A DNA stretch of 28,017 nucleotides from the IMG/VR virus record IMGVR_UViG_3300021964_000391, positions 1 to 28,017 of that record, one strand, 5' to 3'. The position numbers were made by a program, and so were the translations under genes. The number at the start of each line of letters is the position of its first letter. The first letter of the stretch is position 1. Under the pieces are notes generated by a model. It had not been told where the DNA came from. It did no database searches and saw only the letters and a list, made by a program, of their open reading frames with translations. Shown one piece after another: positions 4,346 through 28,017 of this stretch. The stretch is from a virus.

Positions 4346-4822
4346 CTATTTAGCATCTTTGTCTAACAAACGCTTGAGTAGTTCGTTTCTGTCCAGCACC
4401 ATACCCGTTCCAGTCTCCGCATCAGCATCAGGATCTTTGTTCATTTGATCCATGCGCAGTTTCTTGAGTTGCAGGTCAATCATTTTGAGTTTCTTGTTTA
4501 CTTTGGCATTCTTTGCTGTGATAGCATGTCCAAGCATGCTACTGGCTGTGTTGAATATTTCACTGGCCCATCTGCTGTCCACATTCATGCCAAGATCCAT
4601 AAGATCGTCGAATGTTTTGGTTGCTTTTTCAGCAAGCTCATCCATTTCACGGTCACTGCTTTCTAAGCCACGTACTTGTGGCAGTGCGGCATTGATTTTG
4701 TCCAGTTCACTGAGTGCATTGGTGTACTCAGGAATGTCGTCAGCAGTGCTGACTTCTTGTTTTGGTTCTTCTGTTTCTTCCTGTTGCGGTAGATCAAACA
4801 GTTCTTCAAGTTTCTTTGTCAT
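4346..4822 (-). CDS. gp16: Small terminase subunit, T4 gp16-like
   Basis: This 158-residue protein has the layout of T4-type small terminase subunits: an acidic flexible N-terminus (residues 1-45, many Glu/Gln), a central pair of helices (about 55-125, with FDDLMDLGMNVDSRWASEIF and a Lys-rich helix NKKLKMIDLQLKKLR) and a short acidic tail. T4 gp16 is of similar size and works in the nucleus-free cytoplasm of the host with the gp17 motor, selecting DNA and stimulating packaging. The gp17 gene is not in this window. No Shine-Dalgarno sequence precedes the ATG; instead a late-type GTTAAATA ends five bases before it, suggesting a leaderless late mRNA. The assignment is from domain layout and short sequence patterns, so moderately sure. 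Confidence 0.65.
   Translation of the reverse strand: MTKKLEELFDLPQQEETEEPKQEVSTADDIPEYTNALSELDKINAALPQVRGLESSDREMDELAEKATKTFDDLMDLGMNVDSRWASEIFNTASSMLGHAITAKNAKVNKKLKMIDLQLKKLRMDQMNKDPDADAETGTGMVLDRNELLKRLLDKDAK
4347..4354 (-). promoter_or_regulatory. Possible late-type octamer GCTAAATA before the 3727-4329 gene
   Basis: It has the TAAATA core and lies inside the perfect 14-base palindrome ATGCTATTTAGCAT (4343-4356), which also holds the gp16 stop codon. The predicted start near 4341 leaves a 12-base leader with AGGGG. The start base would be T rather than a purine, which weakens the case. Confidence 0.35.
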
Positions 4823-12400: not shown

Positions 12401-12744
12401 TCAATGTTAGCTCTTTGTACATAAGCTCTGTTGCTCACTCCAAGAACTGAATAGGCGGCTAACAATCCGTATTCATTGAGTTCATAACCATTGATCTGTG
12501 TACCTGCTGAAGTACTATAGAAGAATGGATTACCAAACGTTGCTGACAAGTCTCTCTGGCTTGTAATAAGGTAGACGTCATTTGCGTTGGCTGCTGTGGT
12601 ACCAGCGGCAGTGCCGGTGCCACTTCCGCTCACCTTGTTTTCTGCTGTTGCAATCAAGATGTACGGTACTGTATTTGTTGCGGCTGGTAGATAGTTACTC
12701 TCGTCAACTACGGTAACTTCTACGCCTGGTGATACTAGTGCCAT
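9433..12744 (-). CDS. gp18: Contractile tail sheath protein, T4 gp18-like, enlarged
   Basis: The 1103-residue product starts with the usual sheath opening (MALVSPGVEVTVVDES, a Pro-Gly-Val strand that links neighbouring subunits). The last 400 residues are the conserved sheath core: LTSSYTDIDAPDATLYPEGI, FTLICTPGYPELMG, SHMMLRTIVRSDDVSFPWLA, GLRDTLYENDINPI, FIRGRLETIGKNFVFEPN and VKAVEFIYIPVRI. T4 gp18 has 659 residues, so over 400 are extra. They fall around residues 110-690, which is rich in Thr, Asn, Gly and Val, and would form surface-exposed domains. Within this insert, near residues 126, 577 and 640, are short Trp-rich hairpin modules (for example TEGTYWYYSATDQVDIMIQS then GGAW). It forms the outer layer that contracts to drive the tube into the cell. 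A terminator follows the gene. Confidence 0.92.
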   Translation of the reverse strand: MALVSPGVEVTVVDESNYLPAATNTVPYILIATAENKVSGSGTGTAAGTTAANANDVYLITSQRDLSATFGNPFFYSTSAGTQINGYELNEYGLLAAYSVLGVSNRAYVQRANIDLAELTASLTRPTGAATDGAWWMDTDETTWGVFEWSSSTNVFTNKVPTVITSTSDLTGGVPKASIGSIGDYAVVATNVNNPLYFKSSGLTTTATAGDTEQVAANTWVQAGSDSWKLSWPTATGTETNPTITIGHSIYLNDTLVTATGTTVASLAIDINDAGITGVFGKAVSGKLYIYINGNATNDGSTNDGNGIVDITTGTGTILTDVGITPRIYYAPLVQQSPHYTNPQWRTTDSQPHPTGSVWGKTTNVNLGANLVVKQYDSATGLFNTVTVPSYENDQSANKFLDPSNGGSAIAAESVYAKYDVTENETFTYKLFERLATGATIITGDDTSPTFTSLETFTIRASAKNSTSLTTAVTATLGGTTAADFAEAFTAANVANTTCAVTSSGAIQISHTQGGVIVLEDTSGTPVADAGINTTVTGVRNGWTNGVTDTNQYVLSNWIALGGTDSYTASGTAPSTDPTEGTYWYYSATDQVDIMIQSGGAWVGYQTVTNDVRGFNLSNCSPNGPIVSATEPTKQSDESALVYGDIWIDTSDLENYPIIKRWQSVEGTDSWVTLSNSDQTTQDGVLFADARWAGNGTTDPITDDIPTIKTLLTSSYTDIDAPDATLYPEGILLFNLRRSGFNVKSFQINYFNATDFPDDSLPTQKDAWVTASGLNNDGSPNMGRKAQRALVVAAMKSAIDGSQELREEQRAFTLICTPGYPELMGNMVSLNNDRDNTAFVIGDTPMRLADTGTAIVNWATNADGAASDGEEGLVTHDAYCGIFYPSAQTTDLSGSTVVVPPSHMMLRTIVRSDDVSFPWLAPAGVRRGTVDNASQLGYINASTGEFTSTAIRQGLRDTLYENDINPITFFPGTGILNYGNKTSTSVDSALDRINVARLIAFIRGRLETIGKNFVFEPNDTITRNEIKESIEGLMNDLVAKRGIYDYLVVCDESNNTPARIDRNELYVDIAIEPVKAVEFIYIPVRIKNTGEIAAGNIAASGAV

Positions 12745-12754
12745 AATTTTTTCC

Positions 12755-12774
12755 TTTGTAAAAATTCTTACAAA
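12755..12774 (-). promoter_or_regulatory. Leader hairpin before gp18
   Basis: Arms TTTGTAA and TTACAAA (7 bp, AT-rich) with a six-base loop directly follow the late octamer. The 3' arm overlaps the AAAGGA ribosome-binding site. A transcript from the octamer would lack most of the 5' arm; a read-through transcript would contain all of it. Confidence 0.45.
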
Positions 12775-12782
12775 TATTTATC
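12775..12782 (-). promoter_or_regulatory. Late-type promoter octamer GATAAATA for gp18
   Basis: Identical to the gp19 octamer. The predicted start near 12769 falls within the 5' arm of the small hairpin at 12755-12774, leaving a leader with AAAGGA before the ATG. Confidence 0.65.
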
Positions 12783-13999: not shown

Positions 14000-14590
14000 C
14001 TATTTTGTCAACTTTTTTGGTTTACTTGGTTTCTTTGTGCTCTTGCTTACCATGCGTACTATTTTGGTCTTCGGAGAAGATTGTTGTTTTTTAGTAAGGG
14101 CATTTAAACGAGCAAGAATTTTACTTGCAGGATTTACACGTTTTGTTTTCTTTGCTTTCCGAGCTTGACGTACTTTTGTAGTTGCACGAGTGCGTTTCAT
14201 ACGAGCAGCTTTTTCAATATCTTTTGGTGTGCTACAAACCTTAGGATCTGGCACAATGCGTCCGGCTTTAGGGCCACTAGCACAACGATACTTTAACTTG
14301 ATTTGTTTGCCACTTCGGCTCCAGATCATCTTGTGTTCGTCGAGTTGGTCCTCGAACAATTGATTTAGATCGTCTAAGTAAAATACACCGTAACGACCGC
14401 GACGTTTTTCAAACTCCCATGTGTTGTCATCCATTTCATAACCGTCCCAAGCGCCATCATCTAGAATAGCGATTGCTTCTGATGGATCTGTTTGATTAAT
14501 CCAAAGCTCTACATCATTGGTTTTTTTAACCAACTTGTATCCGGTTGTATCAACCTTACCAGCTTCAACTACAAACTCTTCGAAACGCAT
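14000..14590 (-). CDS. Phage protein of unknown function with basic C-terminal module
   Basis: The start is placed at the ATG that overlaps the gp13 stop by one base (TAATG), giving 196 residues (MRFEEFVVEAGK); an in-frame ATG at 14605 would add five residues. Residues 1-100 are acidic, with LDDGAWDGYEMDDNTWEFEK and YGVFYLDDLNQLFEDQL. Residues 105-196 are extremely basic: KLKYRCASGPKAGRIVPDP, VCSTPKDIEKAARMKRTRAT and NPASKILARLNALTK. I recall this C-terminal module, with two conserved Cys, in several unrelated-looking marine phage proteins, where it may bind DNA; that is inference. It lies between gp13 and the exonuclease in one operon. Confidence 0.7.
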   Translation of the reverse strand: MRFEEFVVEAGKVDTTGYKLVKKTNDVELWINQTDPSEAIAILDDGAWDGYEMDDNTWEFEKRRGRYGVFYLDDLNQLFEDQLDEHKMIWSRSGKQIKLKYRCASGPKAGRIVPDPKVCSTPKDIEKAARMKRTRATTKVRQARKAKKTKRVNPASKILARLNALTKKQQSSPKTKIVRMVSKSTKKPSKPKKLTK

Positions 14591-15354
14591 TATCCAATTA
14601 CCCAAGTAAGTGGCTGTGATCCATCTACAAAGTTTTTAAGGTCTTCAATCTTTGCATCCATAATTGATTGTCCTTCTGCCTTCATTGCCGCGCCGTTAAG
14701 CGACGTTCCTGATTGAGGTCCAGCAATAGTTGCAAATTTTTCACGAGCTTCACCAATAATAACTTTACAGGCACCAACCATATAATCCTTGAACCACTGA
14801 CTAGTGCTTACATCAGTGAGCAGGTGTATTTCAGGACGTAGATTGTAGGTCCAAAGCAGAACTGTTTCGCCAGTTCCACGTACATCGCGAATCAATTGAA
14901 GTTGTTTAGTAGCAGGGTTGAACGTATAGTTTACAAATCCACCGAACATCCTGGCAGCAAGTTCAACATATTGTGTATAAAAATCATATGATGCTAGACC
15001 GCCAGCATAGTTGTAATTTAAAAGATATGTATTAAGGGTTGCACTGCTAAAAGGATCAAAACTTGTGCTATATGGCCCTTGCATGTTACCAATGGTACGC
15101 CTGAAGATCTGCCTTACACTTTGTATTTCTTGTGGTAATGTATAGATGTGTTGGTCTTCTACCAATTCAAGAAAAGCATAGCTTTCTTCATAGGCATTTG
15201 TAGCACGTTGTCTATAAATGCCTAGCGTTTTTTGATATGCAGCTTCATAATGTTCAGGGTCGAGTTCAATATCAATGATACCGTCACCTAACTGATAGCG
15301 CACATAGTCAATGGTGTTGTTTTTTAAACCTTCTAGTGTTGTTTGATCTGACAT
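14590..15354 (-). CDS. gp13: Neck protein, T4 gp13-like
   Basis: The 254-residue product has the pattern of T4-type gp13: LKNNTIDYVRYQLGDGIIDI near the start, LDPEHYEAAYQKTLGIYRQR, VEDQHIYTLPQEIQSVRQIF, and WFKDYMVGACKVIIGEAREK in the C-terminal half. In T4 a ring of gp13 seals the filled head and joins it to gp14 and the tail. The ATG touches a 10-bp hairpin whose loop is the Shine-Dalgarno sequence, with a late-type octamer just upstream. In T4-type phages gene 13 is normally followed by gene 14 on the same strand; here gp14 is over 2 kb away on the opposite strand. An unknown protein follows in a TAATG overlap. Confidence 0.82.
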   Translation of the reverse strand: MSDQTTLEGLKNNTIDYVRYQLGDGIIDIELDPEHYEAAYQKTLGIYRQRATNAYEESYAFLELVEDQHIYTLPQEIQSVRQIFRRTIGNMQGPYSTSFDPFSSATLNTYLLNYNYAGGLASYDFYTQYVELAARMFGGFVNYTFNPATKQLQLIRDVRGTGETVLLWTYNLRPEIHLLTDVSTSQWFKDYMVGACKVIIGEAREKFATIAGPQSGTSLNGAAMKAEGQSIMDAKIEDLKNFVDGSQPLTWVIG

Positions 15355-15380
15355 ACAAGAGCGTCCTTTCCGCTCTTGTA
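15354..15380 (-). promoter_or_regulatory. Hairpin with Shine-Dalgarno loop before gp13
   Basis: On the minus strand a perfect 10-bp stem, TACAAGAGCG / CGCTCTTGTA, closes the seven-base loop GAAAGGA, which is the ribosome-binding site. The last stem base is the A of the gp13 ATG. In the full fold the spacer between the binding site and the ATG is entirely paired, which should hinder initiation. Confidence 0.7.
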
Positions 15381-15386
15381 TTTATT
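15379..15386 (-). promoter_or_regulatory. Late-type promoter octamer AATAAATA for gp13
   Basis: Seven of eight bases match TATAAATA. The predicted start near 15373 is inside the 5' arm of the adjacent hairpin, so late mRNA would begin about GCGGAAAGGA and keep only three bases of that arm. Confidence 0.6.
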
Positions 15387-16565
15387 TTAATGTGCCTTTA
15401 AGATGATGATATGTTCGTTGCCACGACCGTTAAATTTGATGTCCATAGCCTTGATGTCATTGAAGTTCTTACGAGCCGCAGGCTTGCCTACACCTGTTAT
15501 AAGTTTTATTTGCTCTGCTGGTTTACGCAGTGTTTTCATAACAGTTTTAGCAGTGTCGAGGCCAACAATACTACTTCCTTTAACTGTAAACACTTTAGAG
15601 TATTCATCTGCTACAACATGAATCAGTTTACGAGTCTTGGTGTTGTACAACCATGCTTCGCTAGCATCCACAAGTTTAGTTGGACTCTCGCTTTTAAGGT
15701 TAAGTTCTGCAAATTCCTTGCAGAACTTGAATGTTTTAACCAACTGTGCAGGTGTTTTCTTCTTGATTGCTCTCGGCTTGCGAGTTGCTTTCTTCAGCTG
15801 TATATAGTTGTCGCAGTCTGCTACACTCTGCTCTAAGAACTTGATAAAGTTACGCACCTGGATTTTGCCAAGATGGCTATACCCTTCTTTTAATTGATCA
15901 CACTTGCCCTCTTGTACTTCCTGCATTTCTTCCAACATAAACTGCAATGGATTGCGAATGATATCAATAGCTTGTGCAGGTGCTTCATGGATACGAAGTT
16001 GTTCCATTACACTAAACTTTTCGGGGTTTTTGTATTCACCCTCTACAAAGTCGTCGATAACTTGTTCAACATACCCGCCAATGGTTGCGGCCTTGTCACG
16101 CATATAGTCTTGAACACTTCGTTGGGGCTTTTTATCTTCTGCTTTTGCCTCTTCTTCTTTGGCTGGACGAATTTTTCTCAACACAGAATCAATATTGTCT
16201 TTAAGACTTTCACTAACAGGGCGAATATCGCCTACTGTACCTTCAAGGCTTTGCCAATATTCAGGGTGTTCGGGATGTAAGTCTGGCATACCTTTACGCA
16301 AACAAACAGCATAGATGATGCTAGAACTTAATCCGTCTGACCCAACAGTTTTAATATCACGGATTTGATCAGCTTTGTAGCCAATGTCTTTCATCCAAAG
16401 ATATAAGTCTTTAATCAAGTCTGAAATCTTGTAAGTTTCATAATAATAACGCACGGCCATGTTACGGAAGGCATGGAACTCTGCTCCGCTCATATCTAGT
16501 GCGCCTTCAAAACTAGGATCTAGTTGTGCGCCTTTGGGTTTGCGTGTTGCCTTTTTTACCGCCAT
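15387..16565 (-). CDS. Phage protein of unknown function, 392 residues
   Basis: I choose the ATG at 16563-16565 (MAVKKATRKPKG) because AGGAG lies seven bases upstream at 16573-16577 and a predicted transcript start is near 16587; the ATG at 16584-16586 would then lie at or before the mRNA end. Residues about 20-110 are helical (AFRNMAVRYYYETYKISDLI). Residues 130-150 are charged (RPAKEEEAKAEDKKPQ). Residues 160-250 hold helices with FMLEEMQEVQEGKCD. A basic motif KKATRKP occurs twice, at the N-terminus and near residue 260, the second followed by a Lys-rich linker. The C-terminal 110 residues look like a folded alpha/beta domain (AWLYNTKTRKLIHVVADEYS). No known domain is recognised. It is the first gene of the leftward operon leading to gp13. 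Confidence 0.72.
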   Translation of the reverse strand: MAVKKATRKPKGAQLDPSFEGALDMSGAEFHAFRNMAVRYYYETYKISDLIKDLYLWMKDIGYKADQIRDIKTVGSDGLSSSIIYAVCLRKGMPDLHPEHPEYWQSLEGTVGDIRPVSESLKDNIDSVLRKIRPAKEEEAKAEDKKPQRSVQDYMRDKAATIGGYVEQVIDDFVEGEYKNPEKFSVMEQLRIHEAPAQAIDIIRNPLQFMLEEMQEVQEGKCDQLKEGYSHLGKIQVRNFIKFLEQSVADCDNYIQLKKATRKPRAIKKKTPAQLVKTFKFCKEFAELNLKSESPTKLVDASEAWLYNTKTRKLIHVVADEYSKVFTVKGSSIVGLDTAKTVMKTLRKPAEQIKLITGVGKPAARKNFNDIKAMDIKFNGRGNEHIIILKAH

Positions 16566-16593
16566 GTATCTACTCCTGTCATTCAACTTTTAC

Positions 16594-16622
16594 ATAGTAA
16601 TGTAGTTTTTAGTTTAGGTCAA
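16594..16622 (-). promoter_or_regulatory. Sigma70-type promoter for the leftward operon
   Basis: On the minus strand TTGACC (16617-16622) and TACTAT (16594-16599) are 17 bases apart. The predicted start near 16587 lies just before AGGAG and the chosen ATG at 16565. The -10 box matches TATAAT at four positions, so this is weaker than its rightward partner. Confidence 0.5.
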
Positions 16623-16663
16623 CCTAAAATTTTTCTAGCCAAAATGCAAAAAAAGGTTGACCT
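16616..16663. repeat. Inverted pair AGGTCAACCT / AGGTTGACCT over both -35 boxes
   Basis: Two 10-base sites (16616-16625 and 16654-16663) are exact reverse complements separated by 28 bases. Each has the near-palindromic form AGGT-NN-ACCT and covers the TTGACC -35 box of one of the two divergent promoters. A partial third copy, AGGTTAAC, lies just past the rightward -10 box. This could be a repressor or activator operator. Confidence 0.65.
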
Positions 16664-16684
16664 GTAGGCTAGTTGTGCTATTAT
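16657..16684 (+). promoter_or_regulatory. Sigma70-type promoter for the small early genes
   Basis: TTGACC (16657-16662) and TATTAT (16679-16684) are 16 bases apart, each with five of six consensus bases. AT-rich tracts upstream could act as an UP element. The predicted start near 16691 gives a leader of about 29 bases with GGAG. This resembles a host-polymerase early promoter. Confidence 0.7.
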
Positions 16685-16719
16685 ATATGTATAGGTTAAC
16701 AAAACGGAGCTAGAACGTT

Positions 16720-17166
16720 ATGTCAAACACTAAAGCAATTATCCCAACTCGCGAAGAACTTTGTGACTACATTTATTATCGTCACAAGGATGCTTATGGC
16801 GTTAAAGGTCGTTTTTACGACTTCGATGCTATGAGCTATGCGGAGCTTGAAGCAGAGGCGGTCCGTCTCGACGAGGCTGCTATTGAGCAAGAAGCTCATG
16901 AACGCCGCTGTGATGCTGAGGCTATCATAGAGTTCCGTGCAAATATCCGCCGTGTGCGTGACATTTGCGGTTGTGACCGTGATAGCGCAATTCGGTACAT
17001 GCTGGACGAATTCCGTGGCGAGTATGACGCAGGGTACGTTTGTTTTGTACTGCGTCTTCCTTACAGCATGGAGAAGTACATTGAGCCTCGCTTGGCGGAG
17101 CTCAATGACAGTGCTCCTGAAGAGGAGTTTGTTGAAGCGTATGATGACCTGGAGGTGGCGGCATGA
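16720..17166 (+). CDS. Acidic early-type phage protein of unknown function
   Basis: This 148-residue protein is the first gene after a strong sigma70-like promoter (TTGACC, 16 bases, TATTAT), with GGAG ten bases before the ATG. It is acidic and helical, with AELEAEAVRLDEAAIEQEAH and a Cys-containing segment RVRDICGCDRDSAIRYML, followed by a more hydrophobic strand YVCFVLRLP. There is no signal peptide or membrane segment. Codon use (CGT/CGC, GCG, GAG, GTC) and base composition look richer in GC than the AT-rich neighbours. A host-type promoter and small acidic product fit an early host-takeover or DNA-mimic protein, but that is inference. It ends in an ATGA overlap with the next small gene. 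Confidence 0.7.
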   Translation: MSNTKAIIPTREELCDYIYYRHKDAYGVKGRFYDFDAMSYAELEAEAVRLDEAAIEQEAHERRCDAEAIIEFRANIRRVRDICGCDRDSAIRYMLDEFRGEYDAGYVCFVLRLPYSMEKYIEPRLAELNDSAPEEEFVEAYDDLEVAA

Positions 17167-17288
17167 TCCGTTTTTGGTTGGTGGATAAGGACGGTAATGT
17201 TGTATTCAACACCGTCGACAAGCAGGAAGCATATGAGTATCAGAACCGGCGTCGCCCAGACACGGTACTGAAGATGGTGCGTGTATGA
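17163..17288 (+). CDS. Small protein of unknown function, 41 residues
   Basis: The frame opens at an ATG overlapping the preceding stop (ATGA) and reads MIRFWLVDKDGNVVFNTVDK and so on for 41 residues, ending at a TGA that again overlaps the next ATG. GGAGG (17152-17156) lies six bases before the start, inside the preceding gene, as a good ribosome-binding site. The product looks like a small beta-strand/helix fold (strand WLVDKDGNVVF, then a polar helix EAYEYQNRRR). No family is recognised. The coupled start and stop, the good Shine-Dalgarno sequence and the tight fit between two other frames are the reasons to call it real. Confidence 0.62.
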   Translation: MIRFWLVDKDGNVVFNTVDKQEAYEYQNRRRPDTVLKMVRV

Positions 17289-17461
17289 AAGAAGCATTCT
17301 TAGACGCAGTTATGATGCTGTGTTGGTTTCAGTTTGTGCTACTTGTAGCATTTAGATTCTTTCACAACGTTCCGCATCCTGCATTTTTGCTTGCAACAGC
17401 ATGCGCAGGCATTGGATTTGTACTACTGGTACGCAAGGTACGCAAAAGCATTTATGCATAG
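17285..17461 (+). CDS. Small membrane protein with two predicted transmembrane segments
   Basis: The 58-residue frame starts in an ATGA overlap with the 41-residue gene. It has two hydrophobic stretches, AVMMLCWFQFVLLVAFRFF (about residues 8-26) and AFLLATACAGIGFVLLV (about 33-49), joined by a short His/Pro turn (HNVPHP), and ends with a basic tail VRKVRKSIYA. This topology would place both ends on the same side of the inner membrane, most likely the cytoplasm because of the basic tail. Class II holins have two membrane segments and a charged tail, but so do many other small phage membrane proteins, and no endolysin gene is beside it. It lies directly upstream of gp14. Confidence 0.62.
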   Translation: MKEAFLDAVMMLCWFQFVLLVAFRFFHNVPHPAFLLATACAGIGFVLLVRKVRKSIYA

Positions 17462-17472
17462 GTAGACAAAGC

Positions 17473-17480
17473 GGTAAATA
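17473..17480 (+). promoter_or_regulatory. Late-type promoter octamer GGTAAATA for gp14
   Basis: It has the TAAATA core (six of eight bases). The predicted start is A at 17486, so the late mRNA would begin AAAGGATTAGCTG before the ATG and lack five of the seven bases of the hairpin's 5' arm. Confidence 0.5.
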
Positions 17481-17498
17481 CAGCTAAAGGATTAGCTG
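17481..17498 (+). promoter_or_regulatory. Hairpin with Shine-Dalgarno tetraloop before gp14
   Basis: A perfect 7-bp stem, CAGCTAA / TTAGCTG, closes the tetraloop AGGA, which is the ribosome-binding site; the ATG of gp14 begins at the very next base. The layout repeats that found at gp13, with unrelated stem sequence. Confidence 0.72.
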
Positions 17499-18824
17499 AT
17501 GCCGCGTTTGTCACTGTACAGCCCTCAAAGGCGTAACGATTACAAATTTTTAGATAGAACCATTGCCGAAATGTATCAAGTCGGCGGTGTTGACATGTAT
17601 ATTCACAAATATCTTGGACCAATTCCACACGGAGATGATTCAAGCAGTGAAAACAGTGGAACACAAGATGCAACACAACCTGCTTACAGCAGTGAAAATC
17701 CATTGTTTATTGAAGACCTGTTTTTGCTAGAAAACCGTGACAGAGCATACAGCCAAGACATTTACCAAATGCGAGGCGTGTACAACCAGCAAGATATTGA
17801 TTTTGATCTTACACAATTTGGGTTGTTTTTAGCAAACGACACATTGTTTATTACGTTCCACTATAACAACATGATTGACACCATTGGTAGAAAACTTATG
17901 AGTGGTGATGTTTTAGAACTTCCAAACTTACGAGATTTTCATCCATTAGATGCAAGTATACCAAAGGCAATTCCAAAATACTACGTGATTCAAGATGGTG
18001 CGTTTGGCAGTGAAGGATTCAGTCAAACTTGGTTACCTCATCTATGGCGTGTAAAAGCAACTCCTTTAGTAGGTGCTCAAGAATACAATGACATTCTTAA
18101 CAAGCCATTTGCAACGGATAATATATGGGATAATGGTAACTTCTATCCCAAGAATAGCATTGTGCTAGATGGTGCTACTTACTATCAAGCTCTTATTGAC
18201 GTGCCAGTGGGCACTGAAATTACAAATACAACCTACTGGAGTGTGTATACTCCACTTAGCGAGCTAGCAACATTTGGCACAGTTACCAAAGATAGAGAAC
18301 TTAACGATGCAATTATTACACAAGCAGAGTTTGAAGTTCCTGAAAGTGGTTACAACACACAAAAATTCTACATTCAACCAACCAACGAGGATGGCACACC
18401 AGCAGATCCTGCAGGTTATGATGCAAGTCAAACTGACATCACAGTTGATACAACAAATATTGATGTAGATCAACAACCAGTTAGTCCACGAGCAAATGGA
18501 TACACAGTTGGTTACTTAACTGGAGATGGAATAGCACCCAATGGTTTAAATGTTACACCAGGTGTTAGTTTCCCATCAAATCCAGCAGAAGGAGATTTTG
18601 CATTGCGTTTAGACTACTTCCCAAATCGCTTGTTTAGATTCAATGGAGGACGTTGGGTGAAAATTGAAGACGATGTTAGAACTGATCTTACACACGGACC
18701 AGCTGACCAAACACAACGTAGTTTGTTTGTTAATAACACAAACGAAACTGCAACAGAGGATAGAGGCAATATACCTGAACGTCAAGCCTTGAGTAAGTTG
18801 CTTAAACCAGAGGCAGATAATTAA
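17499..18824 (+). CDS. gp14: Neck protein, T4 gp14-like, with extended C-terminus
   Basis: The 441-residue product resembles marine T4-type gp14: RRNDYKFLDRTIAEMYQVGG and VDMYIHKYLGP at the start, IYQMRGVYNQQDIDFDLTQF, then FHYNNMIDTIGRKLMSGDVL followed by ELPNLRDFHPLD, and PKYYVIQDGAFGSEGFSQTW. With gp13 it forms the neck that closes the head and accepts the tail. T4 gp14 has about 256 residues; the extra part here includes an inserted YYQALIDVPVGTEITNTTYW module and a late module near residues 360-388 (NPAEGDFALRLDYFPNRLFR followed by FNGGRWV). The ATG follows directly on a hairpin with AGGA in its loop. The stop overlaps the gp15 start (TAATG), so the two are coupled. Confidence 0.8.
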   Translation: MPRLSLYSPQRRNDYKFLDRTIAEMYQVGGVDMYIHKYLGPIPHGDDSSSENSGTQDATQPAYSSENPLFIEDLFLLENRDRAYSQDIYQMRGVYNQQDIDFDLTQFGLFLANDTLFITFHYNNMIDTIGRKLMSGDVLELPNLRDFHPLDASIPKAIPKYYVIQDGAFGSEGFSQTWLPHLWRVKATPLVGAQEYNDILNKPFATDNIWDNGNFYPKNSIVLDGATYYQALIDVPVGTEITNTTYWSVYTPLSELATFGTVTKDRELNDAIITQAEFEVPESGYNTQKFYIQPTNEDGTPADPAGYDASQTDITVDTTNIDVDQQPVSPRANGYTVGYLTGDGIAPNGLNVTPGVSFPSNPAEGDFALRLDYFPNRLFRFNGGRWVKIEDDVRTDLTHGPADQTQRSLFVNNTNETATEDRGNIPERQALSKLLKPEADN

Positions 18825-24542: not shown

Positions 24543-27500
24543 TTATGTCCTACCAATTACTACTTCGATGTAGCCTGGCTCGTCGGTGTCTTTGTCTTCT
24601 AGACTCTTACCAACCAGTGTTCCTGGTGCTGGGTTATTGTTTACCATTGCATGCCCTGGAATGTCTGAGCTTACAAGGATGTCACCTTTAGCAACAGGTC
24701 CTACCACTTTACATGGCACCCGTCCTGTTAGTGCAATAGCAGTAGAATGTAAGTCATCAAGTTCACAATTCATTAGGAATGCAGGATCTGTTGAAACTAC
24801 CCCAGCAACTTTAGTATCGTTTGCAGTTGTACTTTCAGTAATTTCATTTTCGCCTCCAAACACAACAACAGTGCCTGGCTCGTAGTCAGCATCACCAACA
24901 TATCTTTCCGCTAAGTCAGCATATTTTGCAGAACTTGCTAAAGTAGTGGTGTTACCAACCGTTAAAGTATCTGTACTTGGACGATAGTAGAAGTTTGTAC
25001 TTGCTTTAGCAGTTTGTGCTGTGCCTGGTTGTGAAATGAATACAATTTCAAAGTTTGCAACTGTTGTGGTATCGTTAGTGGCATTAATACTGGTACTAGG
25101 GCCAGCAATACCTTGGATACCTTGTGTACCAGTTGTACCCTGAGTACCAGTAGTTCCTTGAGAACCAGTTGTACCTTGTGTGCCTGTAGTTCCTTGAGTA
25201 CCAGTTGTACCTTGTGCTCCTGTTACACCTTGAGTACCTTGAGCACCTGTTGTGCCTTGGGCACCAGTTGCACCTTGTGTGCCTGTTGCACCCTGTGTAC
25301 CTGTTGTACCTTGTGCTCCTGTTGTACCTTGGGCGCCTGTAATACCTTGGATGCCTTGTGTACCTGTAGTACCTTGTGTACCTGTTGCACCTTGTGTGCC
25401 TGTTGCACCTTGTGTGCCTGTAGTTCCTTGAGCACCTGTTACGCCTTGGATGCCTTGTGTTCCTTGGGCGCCAGTAGCACCCTGTGTACCTGTAGTACCT
25501 TGGGCACCTGTTACGCCTTGAATGCCTTGAGTACCAGTAGTTCCTTGTGTGCCTGTTGCACCTTGTGTACCTGTAGTTCCTTGAGTACCAGTTGTACCTT
25601 GTGCTCCTGTAATACCTTGGATGCCCTGTGTACCTGTAGTACCTTGTGCTCCTGTTGCACCTTGTGTGCCTGTGGTGCCTTGTGTGCCAGTTGTGCCTTG
25701 ACTACCCGTATCACCTTTGTCACCAGTTCTAGCAAATGTAATAATTAATTCTTCACCAGCACTAAATGATGTTGCTGGTCCGCTAACATAACTACATGAT
25801 ACGTTAAAGTATCCTGTTAGCTCAGTTGCCGCACTGATTGTAAAAATAGCATAGTCAGTTGCGTCTAACTTGTTGCTTACACGGAAGTGACCTTTAATTG
25901 TACTTGTAGAATCATCAATTGTGCGTAAGAAACTTTGTATGTCGGTACCACTTTGATCAGTGTCGTCAATGTACATTGCAGTTGCTGAACTGATTGTGGC
26001 ATTGTTAAACTTGAGTTCTCCAGGTCCTGGGTCACTATTTGATGTATTAGTATCAAAATCATATTCAAATGTAGCACCACCAAAGTTACCTTCGGCACCT
26101 TGTGTACCAGTTGTACCTTGTACACCTTGGATACCCTGGATGCCTTGGATGCCTTGTGTGCCTTGAGCACCTGTTACACCTTGAATGCCCTGTGTTCCTT
26201 GGGCACCTGTTGTGCCTTGTGTACCTGTAGTGCCTTGGGCACCTGTTACGCCTTGAATTCCTTGGGCACCTGTAGTACCTTGTGCTCCAGTGACACCTTG
26301 AATTCCTTGTGTGCCTTGTGCTCCAGTTGTACCTTGTGTACCTGTTGTTCCCTGGGCTCCTGTTACGCCTTGGATGCCTTGTGTACCTTGAGCGCCAGTA
26401 GTACCCTGTGTACCTGTTGTGCCTTGTGTGCCTTGAGCGCCAGTTGTACCCTGTATGCCTTGTGTGCCTTGAGCGCCAGTAGTACCCTGTATGCCTTGTG
26501 TGCCTTGTGCTCCGGTCCTAGCAAAAGTAATAACACAATCTTCAGTATTGCTCGGAATAGCACCTGATACTGGTGATACTGCAACTTGTAACCATCCTGT
26601 GTTGTCAGTAACTGCTCCATCAACGCTTAATATTGCATAAGTTGTATCACTGTTTGTATTACTTTGAATGGTGATCTGTCCACGATCACTGGTAGTAGAT
26701 GAATCGTCCCATGTAGCTATGTAATCAGAAACATCTGCACCTTCTCTTGTGGTGGCATCAATAGCCATTGCAGTAATAGAACCAAATGTTGCATTGTTTA
26801 ATCTAAACTTACCAGCACCTGGGTCTGCCATGGTTGTTGTTGTGTCAAAAGTATATCCTAAACCACTTCTGTCACCTTGAGATCCTTGTACGCCTTGGAT
26901 GCCCTGTGTGCCTTGAGCGCCAGTTGTGCCTTGTGTACCTGTTGTACCTTGGGCACCGGTTACACCTTGAATGCCTTGTGTGCCTTGGGCACCTGTTGTG
27001 CCTTGTGTACCTGTAGTTCCTTGAGCGCCTGTTACACCTTGTATTCCTTGTGTTCCTTGTGCGCCAGTAGCACCTTGAGTACCAACAGTACCTTGTGCTC
27101 CGGTTGTGCCTTGAGTACCAACAGTACCTTGTGCTCCAGTTGTGCCTTGTGTACCTGTAGTTCCTTGAGCACCAGTTATGCCTTGTATTCCTTGTGTGCC
27201 TTGAGCGCCTGTTGTGCCTTGTGCGCCAGTAGCACCCTGGGTACCTGTTGTGCCTTGAGCCCCGGTTGTACCCTGGATACCTTGTGTACCTTGAGCGCCT
27301 GTTGTGCCTTGCGCACCGGTAGTACCTTGCAATCCACTTACAGTTGTAGGATCAGTGAATGCAACAGTACCAGCACCATTGGTAGCAAGAACGAAACCGT
27401 TTGTACCGTCTGCTGTTGGAAGATTGTATTGGCCTGTAACTGCTAAAGTTGCACCAGTAACAGTGCCAGTTGCACTTAGGTTTCCTGCACTCGCATTTCC

Positions 27501-28017
27501 TGTTGCAGTAAAGGCACCAGTTATGTCTAATCCACCACTGCTTAATAATGATACTGTGCTACCGCCAATGTTACCGCGAATGTTACCGCCACTTGCAATG
27601 ACACGCATCTCACTGGTACCGTTTGCAATAGCTGCCGCATCTCCAATGCCAGTTAGTTGACTACCGTCACCAATGAAGTAACCACTTGTAACTTCAATGT
27701 TACCAGTGGTGCTTGTAATATTGCCAGTACTTGTTATGCTAGTGTTCGCTGTGACTGTGCCTGCTTCTAAAGCACCCGACCCAAGATCTAAACTACTACC
27801 GGTTGCCGCACCAATGTCTGGAGTTGTAAGTGGCGCACTTGCTTTAATACGCAGTGTATCAGCATTGATTTCCAGTGTGCTGTCGTCTACGTTTACACTG
27901 AATGTTGTACCTGTGAGTGCTAAACCATCACCTGCACTGTAAACCTGTGTGCTAGCAAATTGTGTATAAGTTAGTTCAGTGACACCGATAATTATCTCAC
28001 CTGCAGGTGAACTGAGT
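24543..28017 (-). CDS. Collagen-like tail fibre protein, 5' end outside window
   Basis: The frame stays open to the right edge, about 136 codons beyond the first internal ATG at 27608, so the N-terminus is missing and 1157 residues are visible. The visible N-terminal part carries [12 protein letters not shown], a common fibre motif. Three collagen-like blocks of Gly-x-y triplets (mostly [12 protein letters not shown]; no Pro) alternate with two copies of a homologous domain of about 120 residues that ends in ITFARTG. The C-terminal 130 residues hold a globular domain with [20 protein letters not shown] and [20 protein letters not shown], a tip domain I recall from marine phage fibres, perhaps related to self-cleaving G2-type chaperone domains. 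It most likely binds the host surface. Downstream enzyme genes may modify it. Confidence 0.85.
25100..25728 (-). repeat. Collagen-like repeat block 3 in fibre gene
   Basis: Nine-base units coding Gly-x-Gln/Thr triplets (for example GGT ACT CAA type codons) repeat through this block, varied at third positions. It runs from [14 protein letters not shown] to GIQGIAGPS and is the block nearest the C-terminal tip domain. Confidence 0.9.
26090..26516 (-). repeat. Collagen-like repeat block 2 in fibre gene
   Basis: A shorter run of the same Gly-x-y units, bounded on both sides by copies of the 120-residue spacer domain. [13 protein letters not shown] near its C-terminal end is the most uniform part and a likely place for slippage or recombination. 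Confidence 0.88.
26876..27335 (-). repeat. Collagen-like repeat block 1 in fibre gene
   Basis: The most N-terminal Gly-x-y block, from [14 protein letters not shown] to [11 protein letters not shown]. Units such as [19 protein letters not shown] recur almost unchanged in all three blocks, so block length could vary between relatives by recombination. Confidence 0.88.

Follow-up and report, generated by a model that had tools for sequence, protein, structure and literature searches.

A predicted late-only translation switch in the leader of a neck-protein gene of an uncultivated jumbo T4-type phage

The leader of a gp14-like virion protein gene in an uncultivated jumbo T4-type phage is likely to act in cis as a T4-like switch that confines translation to the late mRNA. 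The gene lies on a 28-kb fragment of the phage genome (28,017 nucleotides, the whole stretch of DNA analysed, hereafter denoted the window), whose nearest relatives are IMG/VR contigs, some of them longer than 300 kb. Judged by the gp14-like protein, the nearest cultured phages are Agrobacterium phage Atu_ph07, Pseudomonas phage PA5oct and their kin; a search of named phages with the DNA of the whole region gave no match. The 'gp14' label derives from gene order, the next gene being gp15-like (T4-gp15_tss, PF16724), and profile comparison detected no homology of the gp14-like protein to T4 gp14 (hhalign probability 0.4).

In the proposed mechanism two stems are involved, the 5′ arm of the outer lying upstream of the predicted late transcription start and that of the inner extending across it. 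RNA initiated at an early promoter at 16657 would read through three small genes, contain both arms and fold, with AGGA presented in a tetraloop and the start codon locked in stems, an arrangement to which the 30S subunit would bind poorly. RNA from the late promoter, starting at about 17486 if T4 geometry applies, would lack the 5′ arms and be open, and expression of the gp14-like gene would thus be strictly late. The features concerned are:

16657..16684, + strand: early sigma-70-type promoter, TTGACC-16-TATTAT, directed towards gp14 (promoter scan, 10/12)
16594..16622, − strand: divergent early promoter, TTGACC-17-TACTAT (promoter scan)
16720..17461, + strand: three small genes (148, 41 and 58 aa) separating gp14 from the early promoter (ORFs)
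17465..17476, + strand: 5′ arm of the outer stem, GACAAAGCGGTA, overlapping the late motif (fold, pair probabilities)
17473..17480, + strand: late-promoter-like motif GGTAAATA of the gp14-like gene (TAAATA conserved in place, motif profile)
17481..17498, + strand: inner hairpin, CAGCTAA / AGGA loop (Shine-Dalgarno, SD) / TTAGCTG (sequence, predicted fold, relatives)
17486, + strand: predicted late start (+1), inside the 5′ arm and six bases past the motif (T4 late promoter geometry)
17499..18824, + strand: gp14-like virion protein gene, 441 aa (phrog_11591, E 6e-86)
17500..17512, + strand: 3′ arm of the outer stem, TGCCGCGTTTGTC, with G17506 bulged (fold, pair probabilities)

The gp14-like and gp13-like leaders of the window

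Re-reading of the sequence bore out an earlier sequence-only reading, which had described the octamer GGTAAATA, a perfect 7-bp stem with an AGGA loop and an ATG following without a gap: the inner arms occupy 17481–17487 and 17492–17498, the loop 17488–17491, and the start codon begins at 17499. The outer stem had been overlooked; it joins codons 1–5 to the "GG" in the promoter motif, its 3′ arm spanning the start codon and codons 2–5, and its 5′ arm (17465..17476) is identical in sequence in the nearest relatives (L003–L008). Pair probabilities in the outer stem are 0.65–1.0, and those of the leader remain high with 111 to 501 bases of context. In the predicted fold of the long RNA the start codon and its flanks are paired, with the SD itself in the loop.

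The long leader (17462–17540) has a predicted free energy of −27.9 kcal/mol (z −3.97; matched by 0/200 shuffles), whereas RNA starting at 17486 reaches only −7.7 kcal/mol (z +1.39) and folds less well than shuffled versions of itself. Opening the ribosome-binding site (RBS) would cost 19.4 kcal/mol in the long RNA versus 7.4 kcal/mol in the late RNA, with 1/200 shuffles as high. The inner hairpin alone is worth −7.7 kcal/mol, and its arms vary yet pair in relatives; a perfect stem of at least 7 bp around a given AGGA is expected in about 0.1% of random leaders. Hairpins that carry the SD in the loop and touch the ATG number three in the window (gp14, 15381–15353 on the − strand, and an AT-only case at 12766 on the − strand), against a shuffle mean of 0.00. 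For any start between +2 and +10, the hairpin is predicted to be unable to form in late-promoter RNA.

The late motif of the family is [C/G]ATAAATA, the base before TAAATA being A in 84%, C in 12% and G in 4%, and GGTAAATA deviates from it. The frequency of GGTAAATA alone is not significant in the window (0.82 expected), and neither TAAATA nor TATAAATA (one mismatch allowed) is over-represented there as a raw pattern, so the motif was judged by position: TAAATA sits just upstream of the gp14 start codon in nearly all gp14 relatives, and it is this conserved placement that makes GGTAAATA credible as a promoter. The GG of the window motif, where relatives have CA or GA, may be explained by the outer stem. 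A gp55-like late sigma factor (phrog_234) is encoded in 9/10 of the relatives' records, the window being a 28-kb fragment only. The early promoter that had been placed at 16657 is present (TTGACC-16-TATTAT, 10/12), although sites resembling promoters are collectively about as frequent as chance predicts; the type of this promoter suggests that the unit upstream of gp14 is early. The first of the small genes (148 aa) belongs to phrog_21968, of unassigned function.

These genes form part of an early-gene island (15387–17461) that runs rightward into the gp14-like gene and leftward into a gp13-like gene, where a second hairpin would act likewise:

15387..16586, − strand: 399-aa gene (phrog_11903, function unassigned), upstream of the gp13-like gene and co-directional with it
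15379..15386, − strand: late motif AATAAATA of the gp13-like gene
15353..15381, − strand: second hairpin, ATACAAGAGCG / GAAAGGA loop (SD) / CGCTCTTGTAT, 11 bp, −17.1 kcal/mol
14590..15354, − strand: gp13-like head-tail adaptor gene, 254 aa (phrog_211, E 1e-27)

Comparison of the gp13-like protein with T4 gp13 gave an hhalign probability of 92 (E 8e-7). The stem of the second hairpin includes the AT of the gp13-like ATG, and in relatives of this gene the arms vary while pairing is kept (14/21 clusters).

Three further features of the window were noted. A perfect 10-bp hairpin with AAGG in its loop lies at 15700–15730, within the coding region of the 399-aa gene. At 12744–12782 (− strand), a gene with a tail-sheath C-terminal domain, the late motif GATAAATA and a divergent upstream gene carries the AT-only hairpin (7 bp, AAAGGA in the loop), which would lie inside the predicted late RNA, a geometry opposite to that of the switch. 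A 1021-aa protein encoded at 24543–27608 (− strand) contains ten collagen-repeat stretches (PF01391, E 2e-77).

Leader structure and the direction of the upstream gene

A starting sample of 80 relatives found by gp14 similarity and 120 stretches, almost exclusively gp14 homologues, retrieved with a promoter-plus-start pattern, yielded the hypothesis that leaders are strongly structured where the upstream gene is co-directional and unstructured where it is divergent. Upstream gene direction was called from ORFs and a simple codon score; a divergent neighbour is usually marked by GTCAA, the reverse of early TTGAC. The comparative set held about 390 gp14-region loci in 163 clusters; test clusters were formed at 85% gp14 identity from three further searches. 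For each leader we computed the free energy needed to open positions −14..+10 in RNA spanning −80..+30. This value was compared with those of 200 versions in which the sequence 5′ of +1 had been shuffled, and the same energy was computed for RNA that begins six bases past TAAATA.

The RBS is buried in the long RNA in 22/30 co-directional clusters versus 4/100 divergent ones; as the pattern search required TAAATA and the held-out queries bore hairpins, these proportions are not population estimates, and the test lies in the contrast between orientations. At p ≤ 0.05 the counts were 11/14 versus 1/65 in the first cluster set (Fisher 5e-10) and 11/16 versus 3/35 in the held-out clusters (2e-5), p values that overstate independence because independent contrasts are few: the gp14 tree shows 7–8 orientation changes, and of 7 phylogenetically independent pairs about 5.4 are for and 0.5 against (median p 0.125). 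The late RNA is open in both groups (co-directional versus divergent, 2.4 versus 3.1 kcal/mol in the first set and 2.8 versus 4.2 kcal/mol in the held-out set), and the result is independent of the exact start site.

Eight of the 30 co-directional clusters miss p 0.05, several still with visible stems; the L009 clade (16/200) and L026 (12/200) come close, and L263 shows nothing. In L026, a close relative that shares the upstream gene, the SD-in-loop hairpin has been lost and only a weaker alternative pairing remains. In the leader of L427 the RBS is strongly paired (TTGCTAATCCT to AGGATTTAGCAA, with a single bulge) despite an upstream gene called as divergent; this leader may hide an uncalled small gene on the + strand.

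A genome-wide scan of late-motif genes in the window and five relatives' records found 14/78 co-directional genes (about 4 expected) and 2/13 divergent genes at p ≤ 0.05. There is thus an excess, but the element is not on every late gene, and the orientation groups do not clearly differ at that scale. Both divergent matches come from a single palindrome (G001:C1:132720-132780, in L207), which two divergent genes share between facing late motifs.

Among relatives, the stems keep their pairing through changes in both arms, and the SD stays in the loop, which answers the check for compensatory changes that the sequence-only reading had proposed. For gp14, the window's CAGCTAA-AGGA-TTAGCTG becomes CAGTTAA with a G-U pair in L006, CATACAG-AGGAATA-CTGTATG in L009 and ATACAGTAA-GAAGGA-TTACTGTAT in L015, and reaches 10 bp in L017; the gp13-like leaders include GGGGGC-AAGGA-GCCCCC (L499), GGGA-loop-TCCC (L464) and CTGT-loop-ACAG (L495). 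Other lineages have a different geometry: the 3′ arm carries the SD, the late motif falls within the loop or close to it, and the stems measure 16 bp (L319), 14 (L258), 12 (L179) and 11 (L199). Exchanging the segments upstream of +1 between clusters lowered the opening energy of co-directional leaders from 13.5 kcal/mol (native) to 7.7 ± 0.6 kcal/mol and left divergent ones unchanged (5.9 native versus 6.1). MAFFT alignment of the gp13-like leaders leaves the 3′ arms unaligned, so pair counts were dropped in favour of swapping halves; among SD-in-loop leaders, none of 1000 swapped combinations was as stable as the native ones, in either the gp14 or the gp13-like set.

On balance, we lean towards a general rule for jumbo T4-type phages: where an early gene arrives in line upstream, the late leader would repeatedly evolve a hairpin confined to the upstream RNA, from unrelated sequences, and genes with a divergent neighbour would stay unstructured. 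In the latter the late motif is often so close to the start codon that the late mRNA would be leaderless. Late motifs 4–7 bases before the ATG, with no SD, were seen in the gp14 leaders L030–L080, genome-wide in G001, G004 and G007, and in the window at 4822 (− strand), and the distance from TAAATA to the start peaks sharply at 5 (24 cases). Under T4 spacing this distance would place +1 at the A of the ATG, so that many late mRNAs may be leaderless.

Alternative readings of the hairpins

Translational coupling, in which the hairpin shuts off gp14 unless ribosomes reach the upstream stop and open it, is an improbable account of the leaders. The upstream stop (17459–17461) does lie three bases ahead of the outer stem, ribosomes terminating there could partly unfold the leader, and in gp13-like genes the upstream stop is often the TAA of TAAATA (TGG TAA in L467, L473, L475 and others), so that stop and promoter overlap. 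Coupling would, however, permit early translation of structural genes, and it leaves unexplained both why the structure is absent from the late RNA and why the late motif is found within the loop or next to the 5′ arm. The inner stem of the window leader, moreover, begins 20 bases past the stop, which from known footprints would be beyond most of the reach of a terminating ribosome.

We also think it quite improbable that the hairpins are terminators or 3′-end stabilisers of the upstream early genes that overlap the gp14 start for want of space. Such elements would likewise be expected only with a co-directional upstream gene; the 15353–15381 hairpin does receive a terminator-like score, though for the opposite strand, and in the gp13-like relative L480 a GC-rich hairpin carrying the SD is followed by TTTTTT, which could be a terminator and an RBS switch together. 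The gp14 leaders nonetheless have no U-tract, the longest T run in −15..+12 being 1–3 in 28/30 co-directional clusters and no longer than in divergent ones; the stems are mostly AT-rich, the structured leaders listed hold the SD in the loop or 3′ arm, and a terminator scan of the + strand from 17325 to 17499 found none.

A DNA-level dyad, the inverted repeat being a protein-binding site at the late promoter and not an RNA element, is very unlikely. In the window and many relatives the repeat does overlap the region where the promoter melts, but the arms often contain G-T (G-U) pairs (L006, L011, L025, L258, L319, L320), have no motif in common and enclose loops of very different lengths, and most divergent late promoters have no repeat. 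Short AT-rich leaders fold easily, and for a single case chance stands at about 0.1%, yet a palindrome devoid of function is scarcely credible in view of the second copy in the window, the pairing kept through many arm sequences and the swap tests.

Relation to known late switches

The switch proposed in the sequence-only reading is supported by the kept pairing, the link to co-directional upstream genes, the absence of the hairpin from the predicted late RNA, and T4 controls. In T4 e, soc, 49 and I-TevI, the RBS is covered by a hairpin in the early RNA, the 5′ part of which is absent from the late RNA (PMC3014915, PMC2988022). Our opening-energy measure gave 15.5 kcal/mol for the long and 2.6 kcal/mol for the late RNA of e (2/200 shuffles), 13.5 versus 0.4 kcal/mol for I-TevII (0/200) and, more weakly, 16.7 versus 3.6 kcal/mol for 49 (14/200); e, I-TevII and, less strongly, 49 share the signature of the window leader.

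If the orientation rule is true, gene orientation predicts leader structure across the group, with divergent neighbours as a built-in control group and many unrelated arm sequences to compare. So far the T4 switch has been known from isolated examples, namely e, soc, 49 and homing endonucleases; in the phages compared here it appears to occur widely and to have arisen anew many times, the recurrent problem being early read-through into late structural genes and its predictor the direction of the upstream gene. How late proteins are kept late without terminators, amid interleaved early and late genes, becomes testable by comparison, and the hairpin offers a sequence signature by which late genes, and places where early genes have inserted, could be sought in uncultivated phages.

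The mechanism itself is already known from T4 e, 49 and I-TevI; the jumbo myophage setting, the neck genes, the SD-in-loop geometry and the orientation dependence are new. Excerpts of a published account of the jumbo phages CBB and GAP32 describe an ATAAATA late motif upstream of structural genes together with a gp55-like factor (PMC5259590); the motif, its place before structural genes and the gp55-like sigma are shared with the relatives studied here, and leader hairpins, unlike here, are not mentioned in those excerpts. The I-TevI, I-TevII, segB and Aeh1 mobE hairpins (PMC2988022) show the same arrangement of promoter and hairpin, but they control mobile endonucleases inside early or middle units, whereas here the genes are structural. 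The likeness is closest to T4 e, soc and 49 (PMC3014915), in which the late gene follows early genes of the same strand, the long early RNA folds back over SD and start, and the position of the late promoter leaves the 5′ arm out of the late RNA. In the window, too, the late promoter motif lies immediately upstream of the RBS, the gene follows an early-type unit on the same strand, and the long RNA is predicted to fold over the SD and start in a way that late-promoter RNA cannot. The differences from e, soc and 49 are that the genes here encode neck proteins of uncultivated jumbo myophages, known from sequence and predicted folds, and that, with the start codon paired in a helix, the SD of the window leader is predicted to sit in a loop, compared with its position in the helix in T4 e; in L319, L258, L179 and L199 it occupies the 3′ arm, which is T4's own geometry.
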